A stretch of DNA of 64,000 nt from positions 2,861,547-2,925,546 of the forward strand of contig CP003940.1 in NCBI GenBank assembly GCA_000317655.1, given 5' to 3'. Positions within the stretch are counted from its first letter, which is position 1. Every line of letters starts with the position of its first letter. The DNA comes from Cyanobacterium stanieri PCC 7202 (lineage in GTDB: Bacteria > Cyanobacteriota > Cyanobacteriia > Cyanobacteriales > Cyanobacteriaceae). The notes below the pieces were generated by a model. It had not been told where the DNA came from. It saw only the letters and a program-made list of their open reading frames with translations, and did not search any database. This document shows positions 1 through 8,826 of the stretch, one piece after another. Made by a program: the position numbers and the translations under genes.

Positions 1-1837
1 CCGACTGCAACTCCTTCGCCTCATTATTCATCCGATTCAAAGCGCTAAATTCTTGGGCTTGTAATCGCAAAACCTGTAAGTTATTGGTAGTAATGACGAT
101 AATGGGTAAACCATTGACAGTTTTTTGAGGAAAAGTAGGGGGAATTTCCTCCTCCAACCAATAACCTAACCAACCATCCGCCGAATTATCTTCACATTCC
201 ACCCTATCCCAATCAAAAGAGGCATCGAGATAATGTCTTTCAAAATAACGTAAAGTGCCTGTTTGATAACTATGTCGTTGCGCAATGATAGGTTTAAGAG
301 GGCGTAATGGGGATAAAAGTTTGGCTAAACTAGACTGCTCTTGTTTTAAATAGGATTCTAATTCATAATCAATGTTATAGTCTGAACCTTCCCAGATTCT
401 CAACTCATCAATTTGTTTACGATGGGTAATTAACCCTTGTCTTAATAACTGTTCAATTTTTTCTTGCCAATAGTTAAATTTATCGTCATCCTCTCCATCA
501 CAAAGACTATGGGCGACTAAATCACGGGTTGCCCTAGTAATACCTGTAATACTAACTAAGTTTAGCAAACCGATCGCCTTTAACAACCGCAAACTATCCT
601 CATCGAGGTGTTTGGCATCATTGATTAAATCATAGATTTCTACCCACCGTTGGAAATTTACCACCCTTGTTAACCCCATACCCACGGAGGAGATAAAATA
701 ATCATAGATTTGATCAAGTTTGAGGGTAGGTAAGTCATCATCGTTAATAACCGTTTCCTCTAAAAACTTTTTGAAAGAAAAAGGCTCATCGGATGTGATA
801 AAAGTAAATAAGGTGCGATCGTTTTGGGCATATTTTACGCACAAAACTGGTAAAATTAAGGCACTAAGGGGATGAAGAGGATAAATATTTTTAATTAAAT
901 TATCTTCAATTTTTTCTAACTTTAAAATTGGCTCTAATGTTTGATTCCAATGACTACTATATTGGTCAATTTTTTTCTCAAAAACATCATCAAAATTTGG
1001 GGTAATAGCTTCAGCTATTAACCTAATCATCTGCCCTGTGGATTCAGTAAAAGCAATATCTTCAAATCTTCCTGTAATTTTTGACCATTCGTTACGTTGA
1101 ATAGTAGCCAACCTTTGTCCATATTCGGTAAAGGCTTGGTGTAAGATACCTAAAATATAAATTCTCTTACCTTCAACTGCTTCTAATTCTGCTAATTGTT
1201 GTAATAAATATAAATCCTCTGCCCCTTGATTATAAACGGCATATTCTAAGTTTTTACCTAGTTCATCAATAACTAAAATAATATCTTTTTTTGTTTGTAA
1301 AAGAATATCTTTAATAACACTAATTATGGCAGTATTTTGGACTATTTTACTATCCTTAATACGGCTTTCTAAGTCCTGTAAAGAAGCAATAAACTGCTTA
1401 GATAATTTACCACCAACATCCTTTAACCCATTAATTAACGCCCGAATAATAGTTAAACTAATCGCCTCTCGTTGACTAACGGCGATCGCCCTTACCATGC
1501 CATCATCAGGAATATTACTAAGAATAATATCATCATTTATATGGTTATTTACTATCTCTAAAGCCTTTCTTTTTACTTCACTTTTTTGATTAGCTAATAA
1601 AGAAATTAGAAAATGAACAAAAGCAGATTTACCAGTACCATAAACCCCCGTTAAAGTCCAACAATTATATTTATTTTCTCCACTTAGTCCCAACAAAACT
1701 CGCTTTAAAGTTTCCACAGATTTATCCGTTAAAACATAACCATCCAAAGCAGATAAATCATTAAAATCCCTTTCTAAATTGATAGAACGACCATAACGAC
1801 GTTGTAAAGTAAAATAAGAAGATAAATTCATAATCAT
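1..1837 (-). CDS. SspC-like defence ATPase (partial, runs off left edge)
   Basis: I translated this frame by hand; it is open from the start at about 1837 (ATG; a second ATG at 1831) to base 1, about 612 residues without a stop. Near residue 65 there is a Walker A motif (GVYGTGKSA). Near residue 190 a Walker B run (DIILVIDEL) is followed by GKNLEYA and LYLLQQLAELE. Further on are YPLHPLSALILP, YAQNDRTLFTF and AQRHSYQTGTLRYF. These are features I associate with large ATPases of phage-defence systems (Ssp and BREX-like). It lies downstream of a DUF4007 gene on the same strand, which suggests SspC of a phosphorothioation module; a BREX-type ATPase is the alternative. The C-terminus and any sspD/sspE lie outside the window. 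Confidence 0.7.
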   Translation of the reverse strand, partial: MIMNLSSYFTLQRRYGRSINLERDFNDLSALDGYVLTDKSVETLKRVLLGLSGENKYNCWTLTGVYGTGKSAFVHFLISLLANQKSEVKRKALEIVNNHINDDIILSNIPDDGMVRAIAVSQREAISLTIIRALINGLKDVGGKLSKQFIASLQDLESRIKDSKIVQNTAIISVIKDILLQTKKDIILVIDELGKNLEYAVYNQGAEDLYLLQQLAELEAVEGKRIYILGILHQAFTEYGQRLATIQRNEWSKITGRFEDIAFTESTGQMIRLIAEAITPNFDDVFEKKIDQYSSHWNQTLEPILKLEKIEDNLIKNIYPLHPLSALILPVLCVKYAQNDRTLFTFITSDEPFSFKKFLEETVINDDDLPTLKLDQIYDYFISSVGMGLTRVVNFQRWVEIYDLINDAKHLDEDSLRLLKAIGLLNLVSITGITRATRDLVAHSLCDGEDDDKFNYWQEKIEQLLRQGLITHRKQIDELRIWEGSDYNIDYELESYLKQEQSSLAKLLSPLRPLKPIIAQRHSYQTGTLRYFERHYLDASFDWDRVECEDNSADGWLGYWLEEEIPPTFPQKTVNGLPIIVITTNNLQVLRLQAQEFSALNRMNNEAKELQS

Positions 1838-1847
1838 CAGTATTCAA

Positions 1848-1873
1848 TAAGTAGGGTGGGCATTGCCCACCAA
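1848..1873. repeat. Dispersed GGTGGGC palindrome, copy 1
   Basis: A near-perfect palindrome (GGTGGGCATTGCCCACC at 1855-1871), preceded by AAGTAGG. The same unit in inverted orientation, with one base changed in the centre, occurs at 41910-41934. It lies in the 277-base spacer between the two defence-type genes. The rest of that spacer holds only a weak C5/G5 inverted repeat (2062-2091) and a heptamer-like run near 1985-2004. Confidence 0.75.
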
Positions 1874-2114
1874 AATAATTCTCAGTTAAATATTAAATTT
1901 AAAATTAATAATTGATTTTAGTTAAATTAAGCAGTTGAACTTATATTATTACTAGGTCATAGCAATTTTCGTTATGGTGAGGTATGGGGGAATAGGCAAT
2001 AGAAAATGTTATAAACACTGTACCTCATGGCTTTAATAAACGCTATATGATAACTCAAAGTCCCCCAGAATTGTGTGTGAGATTTAGGGGGCAAAACAAT
2101 ACTTTTGTTTAAAG

Positions 2115-3026
2115 TCAATTATTAAGAAAAAAATCATCAAGAATATTATCAGCCAAATCAAGAGGATTACCATTAAAAGATAACTGAATTAAACCAGCAG
2201 TATCCGCCAAAAAAAGATTATCATACTTACGAATCATGCTATCAATAGCACCAAGTAAAGCCTCCTCCGTCAACTTAAAAACTAAACCGGGGCTACCATA
2301 ATCATAAAGTAATCTGCTGATACTAATAGTTGTCTGATTATCACTTACCCAACTAGCATATTCCAAACAAGTAGCCAAAATAATTTCTGGAGATAAACTG
2401 GATTTATTGCCAAAACGAAAACGATAATTTTTGCTATGGAGAGGCTGATAAATTAACCCCAAATCAGCAAAAGGAGAATCAATGGAATCCTCCACAAAAC
2501 CATCATCACCAGTATCCACATACATTCTCAAAATACAAGTCACATCTTTGTTAAGGGAAGAATCAGCAATATTAGGCTTAATCTCATCCCGAAATTTCTT
2601 CAAGCCATTAAACAAGTCATCTCGACTAAATTCAGTTTCATTAAAAAGATTAAAAGTATAGTACCATGACGCACCATTACAGCTAGGTTTAAGAAAATGC
2701 CAATGTAATAACCACAAAGACGCAGGATTTTCCAAATATTTATCCCAGCCATTTTCCCCTAACAACCTTTTCCCAAATTCTGAGGGATTATCATCATTCT
2801 CCGTCACTTTAAAAGCATTACACCAATAACGGATACTCTTCACCATATTTTTACCTACTCCCAAACGAATGGGGGCATCATCCGCTAAAAAAATCTTATT
2901 ATCTGCATTAGCCGCGCTAAAACCTTTATTTAACCATCCCCATCGAGGGTGGAATGTCTCATGACGGGCAAAAACTGGATTTATAGAATTGTCTAACGGA
3001 TTCAATGGTAGATTCGTTTGAATCAT
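2115..3026 (-). CDS. DUF4007 protein, SspB-like
   Basis: 303 residues. The N-terminus (FARHETFHPRWGWLNKGF, then IRLGVGKNMVKSIRYWCNAF) is what I recognise as DUF4007. As I recall, DUF4007 is the domain of SspB, the DNA-nicking component of the single-strand phosphorothioation system SspABCD. It is followed on the same strand by a large ATPase, matching the sspB-sspC order; a 60-base gap separates it from the upstream TauE/SafE gene, so co-transcription is possible. No cysteine desulfurase (SspA) is visible; a housekeeping IscS elsewhere could serve. The family call is fairly sure, the nicking role is inferred from the family, and the system assignment depends on genes beyond the edge. Confidence 0.65.
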   Translation of the reverse strand: MIQTNLPLNPLDNSINPVFARHETFHPRWGWLNKGFSAANADNKIFLADDAPIRLGVGKNMVKSIRYWCNAFKVTENDDNPSEFGKRLLGENGWDKYLENPASLWLLHWHFLKPSCNGASWYYTFNLFNETEFSRDDLFNGLKKFRDEIKPNIADSSLNKDVTCILRMYVDTGDDGFVEDSIDSPFADLGLIYQPLHSKNYRFRFGNKSSLSPEIILATCLEYASWVSDNQTTISISRLLYDYGSPGLVFKLTEEALLGAIDSMIRKYDNLFLADTAGLIQLSFNGNPLDLADNILDDFFLNN

Positions 3027-3086
3027 TCGCTATTATTTGCTTAACTTTGTTGTGCAATACAATATTATGCTTTTTCATACCAAGAT

Positions 3087-3842
3087 TCAATTAAGCCACT
3101 GCCATAAGTTACGCACAGCCAAAAAGACTACTACCACCAAAAAAATTCTGCGCAACCATAGATTACTCATTTTCATGACTACCTTAGCGCCAATCATTGC
3201 CCCAAAGAACATGGTTACGCCCAAAATGATGCCTAATTGATAGTCTACTAATCCTTGACTCATAAAGATGAGGGTGGCAATGGTTGATGAAAAGATATTT
3301 AATACTTTACTCGTGGCGATCGCCTCTACAAATGTCATACTAAATAAACCAATAAAGGAAGCTGTGAGTGTCGTTACATAACCACCGCTGAAAAATCCTC
3401 CATAGACACCAAGGGCAAAAATGAGGGTATAACCAATTTTTATGGATGTAGGGCTTGGTTTTTCTTGGGTTTCTAGTCCTTTGTTTTTGTTGAGTACAGA
3501 AAAAACCGTCACGGCAATCATGAATATAGATATGAGTAAGGGCATAGTATCCGCAGGAATAATAATTACCAACAATGCTCCCAAAACTGAACCAATCAGG
3601 GTTAAAACCGACAGTAGAGGCAAATCTGGGCGTTTTAGCACGTCAGTTTTTAAAAAAGGAATAGTACCCCCGATACTCATAAATATTAAGGCAAACATAT
3701 TCGTTGCGATCGCCCTTGCTGGATCGATATTAAACTCTAACATCGCAGGTACCGTGATCAAAGAATTGCTTCCTGTCGCCACTCCAATGATGCTAGTAAA
3801 GAAAAAAATAGCAACTAAAAATATTAATTCTATGGGTGTCAT
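3087..3842 (-). CDS. TauE/SafE family membrane permease
   Basis: 251 residues, almost entirely hydrophobic, with about eight predicted membrane segments. The start (TPIELIFLVAIFFFTSIIGVATG) and the internal GALLVIIIP and GVYGGFFSGG segments are typical of TauE/SafE permeases, thought to move sulfite, sulfonates or other anions, often outward. It starts at ATG 3842 and lies 60 bases upstream of the DUF4007 gene on the same strand. Substrate cannot be read from sequence. A sulfur compound would fit both the putative phosphorothioation genes downstream and the divergent sulfate importer, but that is inference. Confidence 0.8.
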   Translation of the reverse strand: MTPIELIFLVAIFFFTSIIGVATGSNSLITVPAMLEFNIDPARAIATNMFALIFMSIGGTIPFLKTDVLKRPDLPLLSVLTLIGSVLGALLVIIIPADTMPLLISIFMIAVTVFSVLNKNKGLETQEKPSPTSIKIGYTLIFALGVYGGFFSGGYVTTLTASFIGLFSMTFVEAIATSKVLNIFSSTIATLIFMSQGLVDYQLGIILGVTMFFGAMIGAKVVMKMSNLWLRRIFLVVVVFLAVRNLWQWLN

Positions 3843-4531: not shown

Positions 4532-5590
4532 ATGAAACTACAGAGAAGATTATTCGGTAAATTTTTGCTAGGATTAACCATTAGCGGAGTAATCGCCAGT
4601 TGTGCCTCTCCCCCCACCACCACAGAAAACTCAGGAAGTGCCACAGGAGTTCAAAACCAAGAAGAAGTAACCCTAACCCTTGTCAGTTACGCTGTAACCC
4701 AATCTGCTTACGAAAAAATTGTTCCCCAATTCGTCGAATACTGGGAAGAAACCACAGGGCAACGGGTAACCATAGACCAAAGTTATGGCGGTTCAGGAAC
4801 TCAAACCAGAGCAGTCATAGACGGTTTAGAAGCTGATGTGGTAGCCCTTGCACTGGCTTCTGATCACTACGCCTTACAGGATGCAGGATTAATCGAACCG
4901 GGATGGGAAAATGCAGTATCAGGGCAAAATGGCATCATTACTCGTTCCGTGGTTGCCCTTGTGAGTAGGGAAGGAGGGGAACAAGTGGAATCATGGCAAG
5001 ATTTAGCAGATCCTGATATTACCGTAATCACAGCCAATCCCAAAACCTCCGGGGGCGCTCGTTGGAATTTCTTGGGGCTTTGGGGTAGCGTCACCAAAGC
5101 AGGGGGAAGCGTTGAAGAGGCAAAAGAATTCGTTGCTCAGGTTTATGGTAGTGTCACCACCCTTCCTCGAGATGCTAGGGAAGCCTCCGACGTTTTCTAT
5201 ACCAGAAACCAAGGGGATGTATTAATGAACTACGAAAATGAATTATTACTTGCCGAATCCCAAGGTAGAATTCAACCTTACGTTATTCCCACCGATTACA
5301 ACATCTCCATCGAGGGGCCTGTGGCAGTGGTAGATGGATATGTGGATAGACGAGGTACAAGGGAAGTGGCGGAGGCTTTTGTGGAATTTCTATACACCCC
5401 TGAAGCACAAAGGGCATTTGCCGAGGCAGGTTTTCGCCCTGTTAATGAGGAAGTTTTTGCGGAATTTAGCCAGCGCTTCCCTGTGGTAGAAAATCTTTTC
5501 ACCATCGAAGACTTTGGCGGTTGGAATCAAGCCCAACCCGAATTTTTCAGTGATGGGGCAATTTTCGATCAAGCTCTTTTGGGAAGATGA
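4532..5590 (+). CDS. sbpA: Periplasmic sulfate-binding lipoprotein
   Basis: 352 residues. A type II signal peptide ends in the lipobox VIASC, so Cys24 should be the lipidated residue. The mature part has the sulfate/thiosulfate-binding pattern SYAVTQSAYEKIVP, YGGSGTQTRAVIDGLEADVVALAL, NPKTSGGARWNFLGLWG and PVAVVDGYVDRRGT. It captures sulfate outside the inner membrane and hands it to CysTWA. It is the first gene of a five-gene plus-strand operon, as in other cyanobacteria (sbpA-cysT-cysW-cysA). A molybdate-binding protein would be shorter. Confident. Confidence 0.93.
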   Translation: MKLQRRLFGKFLLGLTISGVIASCASPPTTTENSGSATGVQNQEEVTLTLVSYAVTQSAYEKIVPQFVEYWEETTGQRVTIDQSYGGSGTQTRAVIDGLEADVVALALASDHYALQDAGLIEPGWENAVSGQNGIITRSVVALVSREGGEQVESWQDLADPDITVITANPKTSGGARWNFLGLWGSVTKAGGSVEEAKEFVAQVYGSVTTLPRDAREASDVFYTRNQGDVLMNYENELLLAESQGRIQPYVIPTDYNISIEGPVAVVDGYVDRRGTREVAEAFVEFLYTPEAQRAFAEAGFRPVNEEVFAEFSQRFPVVENLFTIEDFGGWNQAQPEFFSDGAIFDQALLGR

Positions 5591-5691
5591 GGCAATGGAC
5601 AATTGACAATTACGAAATTCTGACTCTACCAGTATCCCGAAAATTCCGTAGGAATAATTACCAATTTCATCACAGTTATGGAGATTTGACT

Positions 5692-6009
5692 ATGACAAAC
5701 CAGAATATTCAAGATAAAAAATCCATCAAAATTTCTATCCATATTCCCCCAAACCACCATGATAAACCAATCATTGTTGATCTGGCTTCCAAGCACAATT
5801 TAGAGGTAAATATCACCTCTGCCATGTTAGGGGAATATGCGGATAAAGATGGTTGGTTTAACCTTATCTTGTCAGGGGAAAAAACTGCCATTCAAGAGGC
5901 TTTAAATTATCTATCTGACTTAAATATAGAAGTTTGGAGTCAAACAGGAAACGGTCAACAAATAGTAAAAGATTCTTGGAGTTTGGGAGAGTGGGAAATC
6001 ACCCATTAA
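5692..6009 (+). CDS. NIL-domain small protein inside the sulfate operon
   Basis: 105 residues from ATG 5692. I prefer this start because GGAG lies about 8 bases upstream; an in-frame upstream ATG at 5587 lies in repeat-like sequence. The pattern KISIHIPPNHHDKPIIVDLASKHNL, later GWFNLILSGEKTAIQEALNYLSDLNIEVW, matches the NIL domain, a beta-alpha-beta ligand-binding fold found at the C-terminus of methionine-importer ATPases. It sits between sbpA and cysT; to my knowledge a small gene (ssr2439) occupies this position in Synechocystis. It could sense a sulfur metabolite or modulate the transporter. Function not known. Confidence 0.8.
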   Translation: MTNQNIQDKKSIKISIHIPPNHHDKPIIVDLASKHNLEVNITSAMLGEYADKDGWFNLILSGEKTAIQEALNYLSDLNIEVWSQTGNGQQIVKDSWSLGEWEITH

Positions 6010-6046
6010 ACATTTTCGATGGAAAACTATTCCCCTAAAAAAAATC

Positions 6047-6907
6047 ATGATTAGTTCTTTAAAACAACCACCATTCAATTATCAAGACACCATCAAAAAT
6101 ATTCTGCGCAAATTCTCCATCCCCTGGGCGGTGACGATCATCTTTCTTGCCGTAATTTTAATCATTCCCATGATGGCGTTAATATTCCAATCCGCTAGTT
6201 TAGGATGGGAAAACTTCTGGCAGGAGGCAACGGCGGAGGTGGCAGTGGCTTCCTATATTTTTACCTTTGGCACTGCCTTAGCCGCTTCTTTGATTAACGC
6301 TGTGATGGGAACTTTAACCGCTTGGGTGTTGGTGCGTTACGATTTTTGGGGCAAAAAAATTATTGATGCTACCATCGACATTCCTTTTGCATTACCTACC
6401 ACGGTGGCAGGTTTGGTATTAGCGACAGTTTATTCCGAGGATGGTTGGATTGGTCGTTTTTTTACTCCCTTTGGTATTCAGATTACTTTTTCACCTTTGG
6501 GGGTATTTGTGGCGATGTTATTTATCGCCTTGCCTTTTGTGGTCAGAACTTTACAGCCTGTATTACAGGAAATGGGATCGGAAATTGAAGAGGCTTCTTG
6601 GTCACTGGGTGCATCGGATTGGCAAACTTTTCGCCTAGTAATTTTACCTCCTCTGCTTCCTGCTATTTCGGCGGGGGTGGCTTTAGGTTTTTCTCGGGCT
6701 GTGGGTTCTTATGGAACTATTGTCATCATTGCTTCTAATATTCCGTTTCGGGATTTGATTCCCCCTGTATTGGTACTGCAAAAGTTGGAACAGTATGACT
6801 ATGTGGGGGCGACGGTAATTGGAGCGGTTTTGTTATTTATTTCTTTGGTTTTGTTGTTAATTATCAATCTGTTACAGCAGTGGGGCAAACGTTATGCAGA
6901 CAATTAA
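6047..6907 (+). CDS. cysT: Sulfate ABC transporter permease CysT
   Basis: 286 residues with about six membrane segments. The cytoplasmic EAA loop that contacts the ATPase is at about residues 182-205 (EEASWSLGASDWQTFRLVILP). With CysW it forms the membrane channel of the sulfate importer. The start ATG 6047 follows the NIL gene by 37 bases, and the end overlaps cysW by 14 bases, implying translational coupling. The order and the pairing with CysW favour sulfate over molybdate. Confidence 0.93.
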   Translation: MISSLKQPPFNYQDTIKNILRKFSIPWAVTIIFLAVILIIPMMALIFQSASLGWENFWQEATAEVAVASYIFTFGTALAASLINAVMGTLTAWVLVRYDFWGKKIIDATIDIPFALPTTVAGLVLATVYSEDGWIGRFFTPFGIQITFSPLGVFVAMLFIALPFVVRTLQPVLQEMGSEIEEASWSLGASDWQTFRLVILPPLLPAISAGVALGFSRAVGSYGTIVIIASNIPFRDLIPPVLVLQKLEQYDYVGATVIGAVLLFISLVLLLIINLLQQWGKRYADN

Positions 6908-7706
6908 AAGGTTAAATACGGGCAAAAATTGGTCAATTTTGATTGTATTTGTTTATTTGGGGCTAATTTTATTAATTCCTGCTGTTTCGGTGTTTTATGA
7001 GGCGTTTAAGGAGGGGATTCCCACTTTTTTACAGGCAATCCAACAACGGGAATTTATTCAGGCGGTATGGTTAACGGTGCTGTTGTCGGTGTTTAGTGTA
7101 CCTTTAAATACGGTGTTTGGCTTGTGTGCAGCGTGGGTAATTGCGAGGAATAATTTTCGGGGTAAGGCATTTTTGATGAGTATTATCGATTTGCCTTTTT
7201 CCATTTCGCCTGTGGTGGCTGGATTAATGATGGTGCTTTTGTATGGGCGTAATGGTTGGTTAAATTGGTTGGTGGAATATCTTGATGTGAGAATTGTTTT
7301 TGCTTTACCGGGGATGGTGTTGGCGACGATTTTTGTGACCATGCCTTTTGTGGCGAGGGAGGTAATTCCTGTATTAGAGGAGATTGGTAGTGAGCAAGAG
7401 GATGCGGCGAGAAGTCTGGGGGCGAATGATTTACAGATTTTTTGGCGGGTGACTCTTCCTAGTATTCGTTGGGGTTTGCTCTATGGGGTTTTGCTGACTA
7501 ATGCTAGGGCTATGGGGGAATATGGTGCGATCGCCGTTGTTTCTGGTAATGTCATCGGTAAGACAGCATCCCTACCGATTTTCGTGGAATTGGCATATAA
7601 AAATTATCAAAGTCAAGCGGCTTTTGCCGCCTCGGTGGTATTGGTTTTGTTGGCGGTTGTCACCCTTATTTGTAAGGAAATTCTGGAACGTTATACAAGG
7701 ATTTGA
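6894..7706 (+). CDS. cysW: Sulfate ABC transporter permease CysW
   Basis: 270 residues, six predicted membrane segments, with the EAA loop at about residues 169-190 (EDAARSLGANDLQIFWRVTLP). It is the second half of the permease heterodimer. It starts inside the end of cysT (14-base overlap). The C-terminal AMGEYGAIAVVSGN is typical of CysW. It is followed by a repeat-rich 112-base spacer before cysA, so the ATPase may be expressed at a different level. Confidence 0.93.
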   Translation: MQTIKRLNTGKNWSILIVFVYLGLILLIPAVSVFYEAFKEGIPTFLQAIQQREFIQAVWLTVLLSVFSVPLNTVFGLCAAWVIARNNFRGKAFLMSIIDLPFSISPVVAGLMMVLLYGRNGWLNWLVEYLDVRIVFALPGMVLATIFVTMPFVAREVIPVLEEIGSEQEDAARSLGANDLQIFWRVTLPSIRWGLLYGVLLTNARAMGEYGAIAVVSGNVIGKTASLPIFVELAYKNYQSQAAFAASVVLVLLAVVTLICKEILERYTRI

Positions 7707-7784
7707 TCCCCCCTAACCCCCCTTAATAAGGAGGGAACTAATAGATCAAAAACTGTTCCCTATTCCCCGTTCCCTATTCCCTAG
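7707..7784. repeat. Inverted repeat and heptamer repeats between cysW and cysA
   Basis: Immediately after the cysW stop is a C-rich inverted repeat (CCCCCCTTAATAAGGAGGG at 7717-7735), which could fold into a hairpin. GTTCCCTATTCCCC-type heptamers follow at 7754-7783. The hairpin could attenuate or stabilise the operon transcript between the permease and ATPase genes. Confidence 0.7.
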
Positions 7785-7818
7785 TTTCTAATTCACTTTT
7801 TCATAAAAATCTAAAAAA

Positions 7819-8826
7819 ATGAGTATTATTATCAATCAAGTAAACAAAAAATTCGGTGATTTCCAAGCTCTAAAAGATATTAATTTAGAGGTAAAACCTA
7901 ATACTTTAGTCGCGTTGCTTGGCCCATCTGGTTCAGGAAAATCAACTCTGTTGAGGGTCATTGCAGGGTTAGAAACCCCCGATAGTGGTCAAGTAATTAT
8001 CAATGGAAAAGATACCACCCATCTTGATATTCGTAAACGAAACATTGGTTTTGTATTCCAACATTATGCCCTTTTTAAACATCTCACCATCAAGGAAAAT
8101 ATCGCCTTTGGTTTAAAAATTCGTAAAACTCCCAAAAATCAAATAAAATATAAAGTAGCTGAACTGCTTGATTTGATTCAATTAGAGGGTTTGGGCGATC
8201 GCTACCCATCCCAATTATCAGGAGGACAAAGGCAAAGAGTCGCCCTAGCACGTGCGTTAGCAGTACAACCTCAACTATTGTTATTAGACGAACCTTTTGG
8301 GGCATTGGATGCTAAAGTAAGGAAGGATTTAAGGGCATGGTTACGGAGATTGCATGATGATGTCCATATTACCAGTGTATTTGTCACCCATGACCAAGAA
8401 GAAGCCATGGAAGTGGCAGATGAAATTGTGGTAATGAATCACGGCGTTATTGAGCAAATTGGCACCCCTGCAGAAATTTATGACAATCCCGCCTCACCTT
8501 TTGTGATGAAATTTATCGGTGAGGTAAATGTTTTACCTGGCCAAACACCTCTGTTTGTCAACGGTAATCACCATGAACATTCTTCTCATCCAGAGGTATT
8601 TGTGCGCCCCCATGAGGTGGATATTTTATTAACAGATGATAATGAAAGTACCAAAACCACCATTAAAAGAATCACTCATCTGGGCGCAGATATACAAGTA
8701 GAATTACTGTTAGAAAACGATTTGCCCATTATTGCCCACCTTAATAAACAACAATTTAACTCTTTAAATCTTAAAAAAGATCAAGTAGTTTTTGTCAAAC
8801 CCAATCGCATTAAAACCTTTGCTTAG
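7819..8826 (+). CDS. cysA: Sulfate ABC transporter ATP-binding protein
   Basis: 335 residues. Walker [10 protein letters not shown] at 35-43, Q-loop FVFQHYALF at 78-86, signature LSGGQRQR at 133-140, Walker B LLLLDEP at 153-159, and the switch His in [11 protein letters not shown]-terminal TOBE-like regulatory domain covers about 240-335. It powers sulfate (and thiosulfate) import through CysT/CysW at the inner membrane. It is the last gene of the operon; its end overlaps by 4 bases the end of the convergent glycosyltransferase gene. Confidence 0.93.

Follow-up and report, generated by a model that had tools for sequence, protein, structure and literature searches.

A phosphorothioation-type island of Cyanobacterium stanieri PCC 7202 with a BREX-like core as its likely restriction half

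Introduction

Which restriction genes accompany the phosphorothioation-type genes of Cyanobacterium stanieri PCC 7202? The question is raised by the left edge of a 64,000-nucleotide stretch of its genome (the window; G000:C1:2861547-2925546, where C1 is the single contig, CP003940.1, of a genome of 3,163,381 bases), at which an island with genes of the ssp type begins. Published work is cited here from excerpts of the papers. As excerpted, Wang et al. (PMC8092258) found 2,211 of 2,678 sspBCD loci to be without sspE or sspFGH and asked whether other restriction partners exist; they also describe SspE as stimulated by the sulfur mark and SspFGH as harming cells that do not have the mark. The Ssp writer path is given in a review as leading from SspA to SspD and on to SspB/SspC (PMC12707154).

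The genes that stand with the ssp genes in C. stanieri recall bacteriophage exclusion (BREX). In the excerpts, BrxB and PglZ form a core complex with BrxC (PMC13326643), PglZ has nuclease activity (PMC13326643; PMC12205998), and methylation in type I BREX sets self apart from non-self (PMC13326643). Type 4 BREX, also named brxPCZL (PMC11931770), is listed with a 3'-phosphoadenosine-5'-phosphosulfate (PAPS) reductase, DUF4007, SspC/BrxC, PglZ, BrxL and a cysteine desulfurase, and with one SspC-type ATPase (PMC12839542); the linkage of PglZ and BrxL to a sulfur writer is already known from it. We propose, with a probability of roughly two in three, that the 18.6-kb island (sspB through sspA) is an Ssp system with an interchangeable payload, and that a BREX core is its likely restriction half here.

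Results

Ssp writer genes at the left edge

Three minus-strand open reading frames (ORFs) lie at the left edge of the window: a 612-aa open frame that starts at position 1837 and runs off the edge, followed by ORFs of 303 aa and 251 aa which are separated by 60 bases. A preliminary description of the window, made from its letters, had reported an ATPase and a DUF4007 gene on the same strand with a TauE/SafE permease 60 bases away and had proposed an ssp-type phosphorothioation locus. The ORF coordinates agree with this geometry, and the Walker A and B motifs that it noted in the ATPase are present (GVYGTGKS and VIDEL). The hidden Markov model searches it had suggested matched the 303-aa protein to SspB (PF13182, E value of 7.8e-101; PADLOC SspB models, 2.6e-119; solved structure 6juf/6lb9, 2.5e-55) and the full 1167-aa ATPase to the PADLOC SspC models (E value of 0, 1462 bits), for which the search of solved structures by sequence gave nothing useful. 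As sequence matches, the family assignments at the left edge have E values that exclude chance.

Beyond the left edge of the window, sspC continues on this strand and is followed by an HNH gene, then by sspD and finally by an SspA/DndA-type cysteine desulfurase gene, so that sspB, sspC and sspD stand in one locus with the desulfurase inside the island (Table 1). The proposal of an ssp-type phosphorothioation locus is thereby supported. The SspD model matched the 268-aa protein at 8.7e-115, against 7.8e-14 for the BrxP model, which covered positions 130 to 336 of 779 (207 positions); by sequence search the protein also reached solved entry 21fy, called PptA (2.3e-6). The desulfurase scored equally with SspA (1.5e-129) and DndA (2.8e-130), and it is called SspA here by type and place. 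When rows within set length ranges were aligned, conservation was at least 90% for the SspD PP-loop SGGKDS, C170/C173 and C263/C266 (30 proteins), desulfurase C332 (23 proteins), the DG, T408, DHG and H593 of PglZ (17 proteins of 700-760 aa) and the BrxL Walker A and B motifs (31 proteins). From general knowledge of these families we take the conserved residues to be catalytic.

An HNH_4 protein was found in 14 of 75 loci scanned (this one included), all 14 with ssp genes and often between sspC and sspD, which makes it a candidate Ssp accessory. SspC was split into two ORFs (about 800-870 plus 350-450 aa) in the genomes designated G388, G056, G145 and G119 and was 1329 aa long in G187 (L137:4236-7741, L089:10088-13688, L075:8782-12658, L078:8450-12215 and L077:8181-12170). 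The matches in these five genomes break near residue 740-780, which suggests, from the alignments, a variable linker, an insertion or a split protein.

A BREX-like cassette between sspD and sspA

Neither of the known Ssp restriction partners, SspE or SspFGH, was recognised. SspFGH had no match among the ten island proteins scanned (no genome-wide search was made), and model PDLC02789 for SspE gave no full-length match genome-wide but matched just twice, over about 118 of 749 positions each time (other SspE models were not searched genome-wide). The search to the left that the preliminary description had advised thus yielded sspD and no full-length sspE. Five other genes lie between sspD and sspA, encoding a second DUF4007 protein, a 144-aa protein, a 1566-aa ATPase, PglZ and BrxL. 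In type I BREX the order is brxA-brxB-brxC-pglX-pglZ-brxL, and the cassette has this order minus the methyltransferase. BREX genes to the left had been named in advance as a finding that would speak against an ssp system; PglZ, BrxL and a BrxC-fold ATPase are indeed there and full-length SspE is not, but they lie inside the ssp island and do not replace it.

PglZ and BrxL, both features of type I BREX, were identified by sequence; BrxL matched solved structure 8emc (4.3e-60), and PglZ reached the PorX-type entry 8ted (2e-5, sequence search). Neither the 144-aa protein nor the 1566-aa ATPase had a match in PADLOC, Pfam or NCBIfam. The BrxC assignment of the ATPase is by fold, PADLOC and NCBIfam models giving no sequence match: its predicted model has BREX BrxC as the closest solved fold, and it shows remote similarity to SspC (hhalign E value of 1.3e-5, probability 80.5). 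Searched by sequence against solved structures, it had no relative (the top match was a designed helical protein, E value of 0.0067) and the second DUF4007 protein gave nothing useful; family negatives in these searches apply to the families listed by VIA-align. Among the proteins listed, the best relative of the second ATPase was from Geminocystis sp. CENA526 (89%). The 144-aa protein is likely BrxB-like, to judge from its place and a weak similarity in fold. No PglX methyltransferase was found in the island, and a genome search with PglX model PDLC02528 gave one match of 117 positions (E value of 5.5e-4, G000:C1:152928-153275; other PglX models were not searched).

Different payloads between the same flanks

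The island was compared at the DNA level with those of four same-family genomes that keep both of its ends (G187, G056, G145 and G119). Identity to C. stanieri was 68-89% across sspB, sspC, the HNH gene and sspD and 79-88% across the desulfurase gene, while the second DUF4007 gene, the 144-aa gene, the second ATPase gene and pglZ had zero coverage in all four; brxL was 72% identical in two of them and a VapBC-like pair 82-83% identical in three. In place of the cassette, G119 has SspF (2.6e-231), SspG (1.8e-191) and SspH (E value of 0), G187 has a DndB-like protein and BrxL, G056 has a DndB-like protein, BrxL (its gene interrupted), a helicase and a GHKL ATPase, and G145 has a DndB-like protein, a helicase and a GHKL ATPase. 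A fifth relative, G388, has the island on two contigs, with sspB-sspC beside a CRP-family gene on one and HNH-sspD-SspE-DndB-like-BrxL-desulfurase on the other. Altogether sspD is present in 6 of 15 family genomes, that of C. stanieri included. Relatives hold SspFGH or other payloads between common flanks, so that the BREX core occupies the slot of an established restriction partner.

The VapBC-like pair, 78-96% identical, adjoins the desulfurase gene in the G119, G187 and G145 islands irrespective of the payload. A further payload after sspBCD, at L089:16734-19094, L077:919-3282 and L169:10053-12410, consists of a DndB-like protein (about 786 aa) and BrxL, in that order. PF14072 passed the Pfam cut-off in the G056 DndB-like protein (5.5e-9) and failed in that of L099; the DndB-like proteins of G187, G145 and G388 are homologues of the G056 protein. 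The payload helicase was PbeA-like (3.6e-28) and the GHKL ATPase MzaB-like (3.9e-20). Canonical type 4 BREX was considered for G056 and G187, where BrxL follows sspD, and was rejected since the intervening gene is DndB-like and not PglZ.

Partners of the cassette in other cyanobacteria

When GTDB genomes were scanned with the second ATPase, 38 distinct named loci were found besides that of C. stanieri, all 38 cyanobacterial. Cassette genes were called by phmmer, and partners by family search for representatives and by similarity to these for the other loci; the family scans covered part of the neighbouring genes. All five cassette genes were present in 27 loci; six of the remaining 11 end at contig ends (L013, L016, L020, L021, L039, L041), and five are without one or more cassette genes in longer sequence (L011, L015, L028, L031, L040). 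No ORF of at least 110 aa separates the second ATPase gene from pglZ in 29 of the 32 loci that have both, and hence no methyltransferase gene lies there. Within the fetched flanks, 12 loci had ssp genes, eight had dndD, three had a DpdE-type helicase, eight were labelled as without partner and seven were cut short. Seven of the eight dnd-linked loci (L019, L022, L025, L026, L028, L031, L036, L038) also had dndC and a DndB-domain gene. The DpdE-type helicase adjoins the cassette in three Calothrix loci (L034, L035, L037), being identified by family search in L034 and by similarity in the other two. A desulfurase gene was found in 11 cassette loci, nine with ssp genes and two cut short.

In a quick tree of 39 rows (C. 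stanieri included; midpoint root, several long branches, L006 labelled as without partner), the 13 ssp-linked rows, counting that of C. stanieri, were scattered across deep branches, and the dnd-linked and the DpdE-linked rows each formed one clade. The partner labels required 6 changes, compared with a mean of 16.2 for shuffled labels, and none of 200 shuffles was as low. We read this tree as showing an old association with ssp genes, followed by changes of partner. 7-Deazaguanine was considered as a third mark on account of DpdE beside the cassette and was set aside, the three loci being one clade and a search for other Dpd genes not having been made.

The TauE/SafE permease and the ends of the island

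The preliminary description had suggested that the permease serves the ssp system by supplying or venting a sulfur compound, and the gene does lie on the same strand, 60 bp upstream of sspB. However, in G388 and G056 the TauE gene adjoins the CRP-family gene with no island between them (about 130 bp and 115 bp from ORF to ORF, respectively); in C. stanieri the island stands between the two. Past the TauE stop codon, homology to these empty sites is lost within about 5 bases; it resumes before the desulfurase stop codon, by 2 bases in G056 and 21 bases in G388, which places the desulfurase gene within the island and TauE outside it. The G388 empty site is imperfect, since its CRP gene has an ssp piece on the far side; in G056 the 20 kb fetched with TauE and CRP showed no ssp gene, and its ssp island is on another contig. 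TauE-type genes occur in all 15 family genomes, 14 with close matches, and only six of those 14 have sspD. Linkage of the permease to DUF4007 in other genomes, proposed earlier as a check, did not materialise: TauE stood beside SspB in one of 41 SspB loci scanned, namely that of C. stanieri (upstream sequence of at least 1 kb is available for 37 of the 41, and at least two, L017 and L074, seem to represent one and the same region, so that not every locus is independent). TauE adjoins sbpA in G388, G056 and G387 and did not do so within the short flanks fetched from other genera, which makes it a neighbour of the sulfate locus in this genus; in the window the divergent sulfate importer of the preliminary description was located by reading of the ORFs. 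The empty sites and the absence of TauE at the other 40 SspB loci ruled out the permease as a part of the system, and a role in sulfur supply or venting is extremely improbable. Judged from these alignments, it is a host gene beside which the island landed.

The G388 sspB-sspC piece on the far side of the CRP gene (L137, G388:C2:146001-166000) has 93-95% DNA identity to that of the window, and the TauE-CRP region may, from its sequence, be a repeated landing site.

Table 1. Features of the island and its surroundings (genome coordinate = window coordinate + 2861546)
Feature	Window	G000:C1	Strand	Basis or remark
TauE/SafE permease, 251 aa	3087-3842	2864633-2865388	-	PF01925, E 1.2e-39; host gene, outside the system
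TauE-sspB gap, 60 bases	3027-3086		.	Contains the left junction of the island
sspB (DUF4007), 303 aa	2115-3026	2863661-2864572	-	PF13182, SspB models, PDB
sspC, 1167 aa	1-1837 (N-terminal 612 aa)	2859880-2863383	-	SspC models
HNH gene, 374 aa		2858668-2859792 (L003:12668-13792)	-	PF13395, 1.2e-9
sspD, 268 aa		2857722-2858528	-	PADLOC SspD, 8.7e-115
Second DUF4007 gene, 282 aa		2856818-2857666	-	Pfam DUF4007, 2.3e-15, passes cut-off
144-aa gene		2856397-2856831	-	Walker-less, AAA-like
Second ATPase, 1566 aa		2851603-2856303	-	BrxC fold (model)
pglZ, 739 aa		2849371-2851590	-	PADLOC PglZ, 6.6e-18
brxL, 487 aa		2847921-2849384	-	PADLOC BrxL, 2e-130
VapBC-like pair (81-aa ORF and 131-aa PIN protein)		2847108-2847735 (L003:1108-1735)	+	Between brxL and desulfurase gene
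SspA/DndA-type cysteine desulfurase, 378 aa		2845951-2847087	-	PADLOC SspA, 1.5e-129
CRP-family gene		2845091-2845879	-	Named by reading of ORF
Sulfate importer SbpA, CysT, CysW, CysA, divergent	4532-8826			Reading of ORFs, no family scan

Discussion

The SspA-, SspB-, SspC- and SspD-type genes of the island predict that phosphorothioate marks are written into host DNA. SspA would deliver sulfur to SspD, SspB would nick and SspC would drive the marking of a short motif. In the other half, the second DUF4007 protein and the BrxC-like ring would scan DNA, with the BrxB-like protein linking PglZ to BrxC, and at unmarked sites PglZ and BrxL would stop phage DNA. On host DNA the sulfur mark would restrain the BREX core; we infer this direction because SspFGH, which lies between the same flanks in G119, is described in the excerpt as harming unmarked cells (PMC8092258). 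Each half would use its own ATPase, in contrast to the single SspC/BrxC ATPase shared in type 4 BREX. More broadly, the island may represent an undescribed cyanobacterial class of sulfur-based immunity, in which a fixed Ssp writer (sspB-sspC-HNH-sspD, with sspA at the other end) is combined with an exchangeable payload, one such payload being a methyltransferase-free BREX core (BrxA/B/C-like proteins, PglZ and BrxL) that reads phosphorothioate; on this wider proposal we are evenly divided.

Several observations weigh against an Ssp system with the BREX core as its restriction half. No ssp gene was found in the fetched flank of 26 of the 38 cassette loci (7 of the 26 cut short), and in three of the eight loci labelled as without partner PglZ is shortened to 216-219 aa. 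SspE and the cassette occur together in four loci (L017, L027, L032, L033; confirmed by family search in L017), so the cassette is not a simple replacement of SspE. In L006, one of the loci labelled as without partner, brxL is followed 2.7 kb downstream by an N6-adenine methyltransferase gene (L006:21082-23109, plus strand; PF02384, 1.3e-32), and the DpdE-type locus L034 has a 919-aa N6_Mtase protein (L034:53-2812, minus strand; PF02384, 2.1e-8), with no recurrence of either in the other 37 loci (phmmer, E value of 1e-10); methylation may thus serve some cassettes. In C. stanieri itself the Pfam score of PglZ was under the cut-off despite the PADLOC match, and the BrxA and BrxB labels are given by position and weak fold similarity. 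Its genome also has a DndC-type gene (G000:C1:2404997-2406274), and from sequence the sulfur mark could come from this second writer. A DndC-type gene is present in 94 of 386 cyanobacterial genomes sampled (C. stanieri included), with 93 of the 105 genomes of the same order having one (order membership read from a list taken as sorted by kinship). All 15 genomes without ssp or dnd beside the cassette (eight partnerless, four cut short, three DpdE) have a DndC match, one of them partial; none was found for two loci cut short beside the desulfurase gene (L030, L041), and L039 was left out. The second ATPase was matched at an E value of 0 in 7 of the 386 genomes, all seven with an SspC or DndC match (10 weaker matches, E values of 4e-10 to 3e-4 and at least eight of them inside SspC frames, were left uncounted). 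A genome-wide link of cassette and writer was given no weight, since 93 of 105 same-order genomes have DndC anyway.

The island might instead hold two independent systems: an ssp writer, either an orphan or with separate functions, and a BREX-like cassette that stands alone and works without the mark. The many cassette loci without flanking ssp genes, the seven loci in which no modification gene was recognised and the methyltransferase gene downstream in L006 would all fit this, yet the cassette has no methyltransferase-capable ORF between the second ATPase gene and pglZ in 29 of 32 loci, its ssp-linked loci are spread over deep branches of the tree, and in C. stanieri it lies between sspD and the desulfurase gene, where four relatives hold SspFGH or other payloads. 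We therefore consider independence unlikely. The mark might also switch the cassette on, the BREX core taking marked host DNA as a licence and attacking through a mark-stimulated activity as SspE does. Stimulation of SspE by the mark (PMC8092258, as excerpted) and the presence of SspE beside four cassettes argue for this direction; the toxicity without the mark of SspFGH, encoded between the same flanks in G119, and the role of methylation in defining self and non-self in type I BREX (PMC13326643, as excerpted) argue against it and make it rather improbable.

The island could alternatively be no more than a type 4 BREX (brxPCZL) whose genes are split, in which the second ATPase and the second DUF4007 protein are dispensable extras. 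All type 4 parts listed in the excerpt occur in it (PMC12839542): sulfur-type modification genes stand with DUF4007 and a cysteine desulfurase, and PglZ and BrxL lie beside a PAPS reductase. This reductase, however, is short and unfused and matches SspD far better than the 207 positions of BrxP, a protein that in type 4 BREX is long and often fused to DUF4007. Type 4 is described there with one ATPase (PMC12839542), whereas in the island each half has an ATPase and a DUF4007 protein to itself, and the second ATPase has its own BrxC fold and directly precedes pglZ in 29 of the 32 loci having both. An ordinary type 4 BREX is accordingly an unlikely account.

Compared with SspABCD systems that use SspE or SspFGH, the island is alike in its SspA, SspB, SspC and SspD matches (1e-114 or better) and in a slot that holds SspFGH in G119 and SspE in G388; it differs in that its restriction genes are a BREX core, with no SspFGH in the island and no full-length SspE match in the genome, and in its HNH gene between sspC and sspD. 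From type I BREX it differs in having an Ssp writer in place of pglX, and in its tentative BrxA and BrxB counterparts, so labelled by position and weak fold similarity. The BREX-related capture systems, which in the excerpt comprise PglZ, DUF6079, STAND, DUF4007, HerA, GNAT and TGT (PMC12839542), likewise bring together PglZ, DUF4007, a BrxC-like ATPase and a BrxB-like protein, but the island has BrxL, no Pfam DUF6079 match and no HerA/FtsK, GNAT or TGT among its ten scanned proteins. No published pairing of SspBCD with a separate BrxC-PglZ-BrxL cassette was found in the literature consulted, which covers type 4 BREX in part, so that an earlier description is possible. As far as we have seen, two things are new: the complete set of SspABCD genes stands together with a distinct BREX core that brings a BrxC-fold ATPase and a DUF4007 protein of its own, and between common flanks this core is exchanged for SspFGH or other payloads.

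The island is thus a concrete candidate for the kind of extra restriction partner asked about by Wang et al., and an exchangeable-payload class, if true, would account for part of the sspBCD loci without a known partner. It would also mean that BREX restriction can be separated from methylation and run by a backbone sulfur mark. Six related genomes that have the same writer genes and different payloads provide a natural experiment; if the reading and writing halves each keep their own ring ATPase, payload swaps among them could test which subunit senses the mark.

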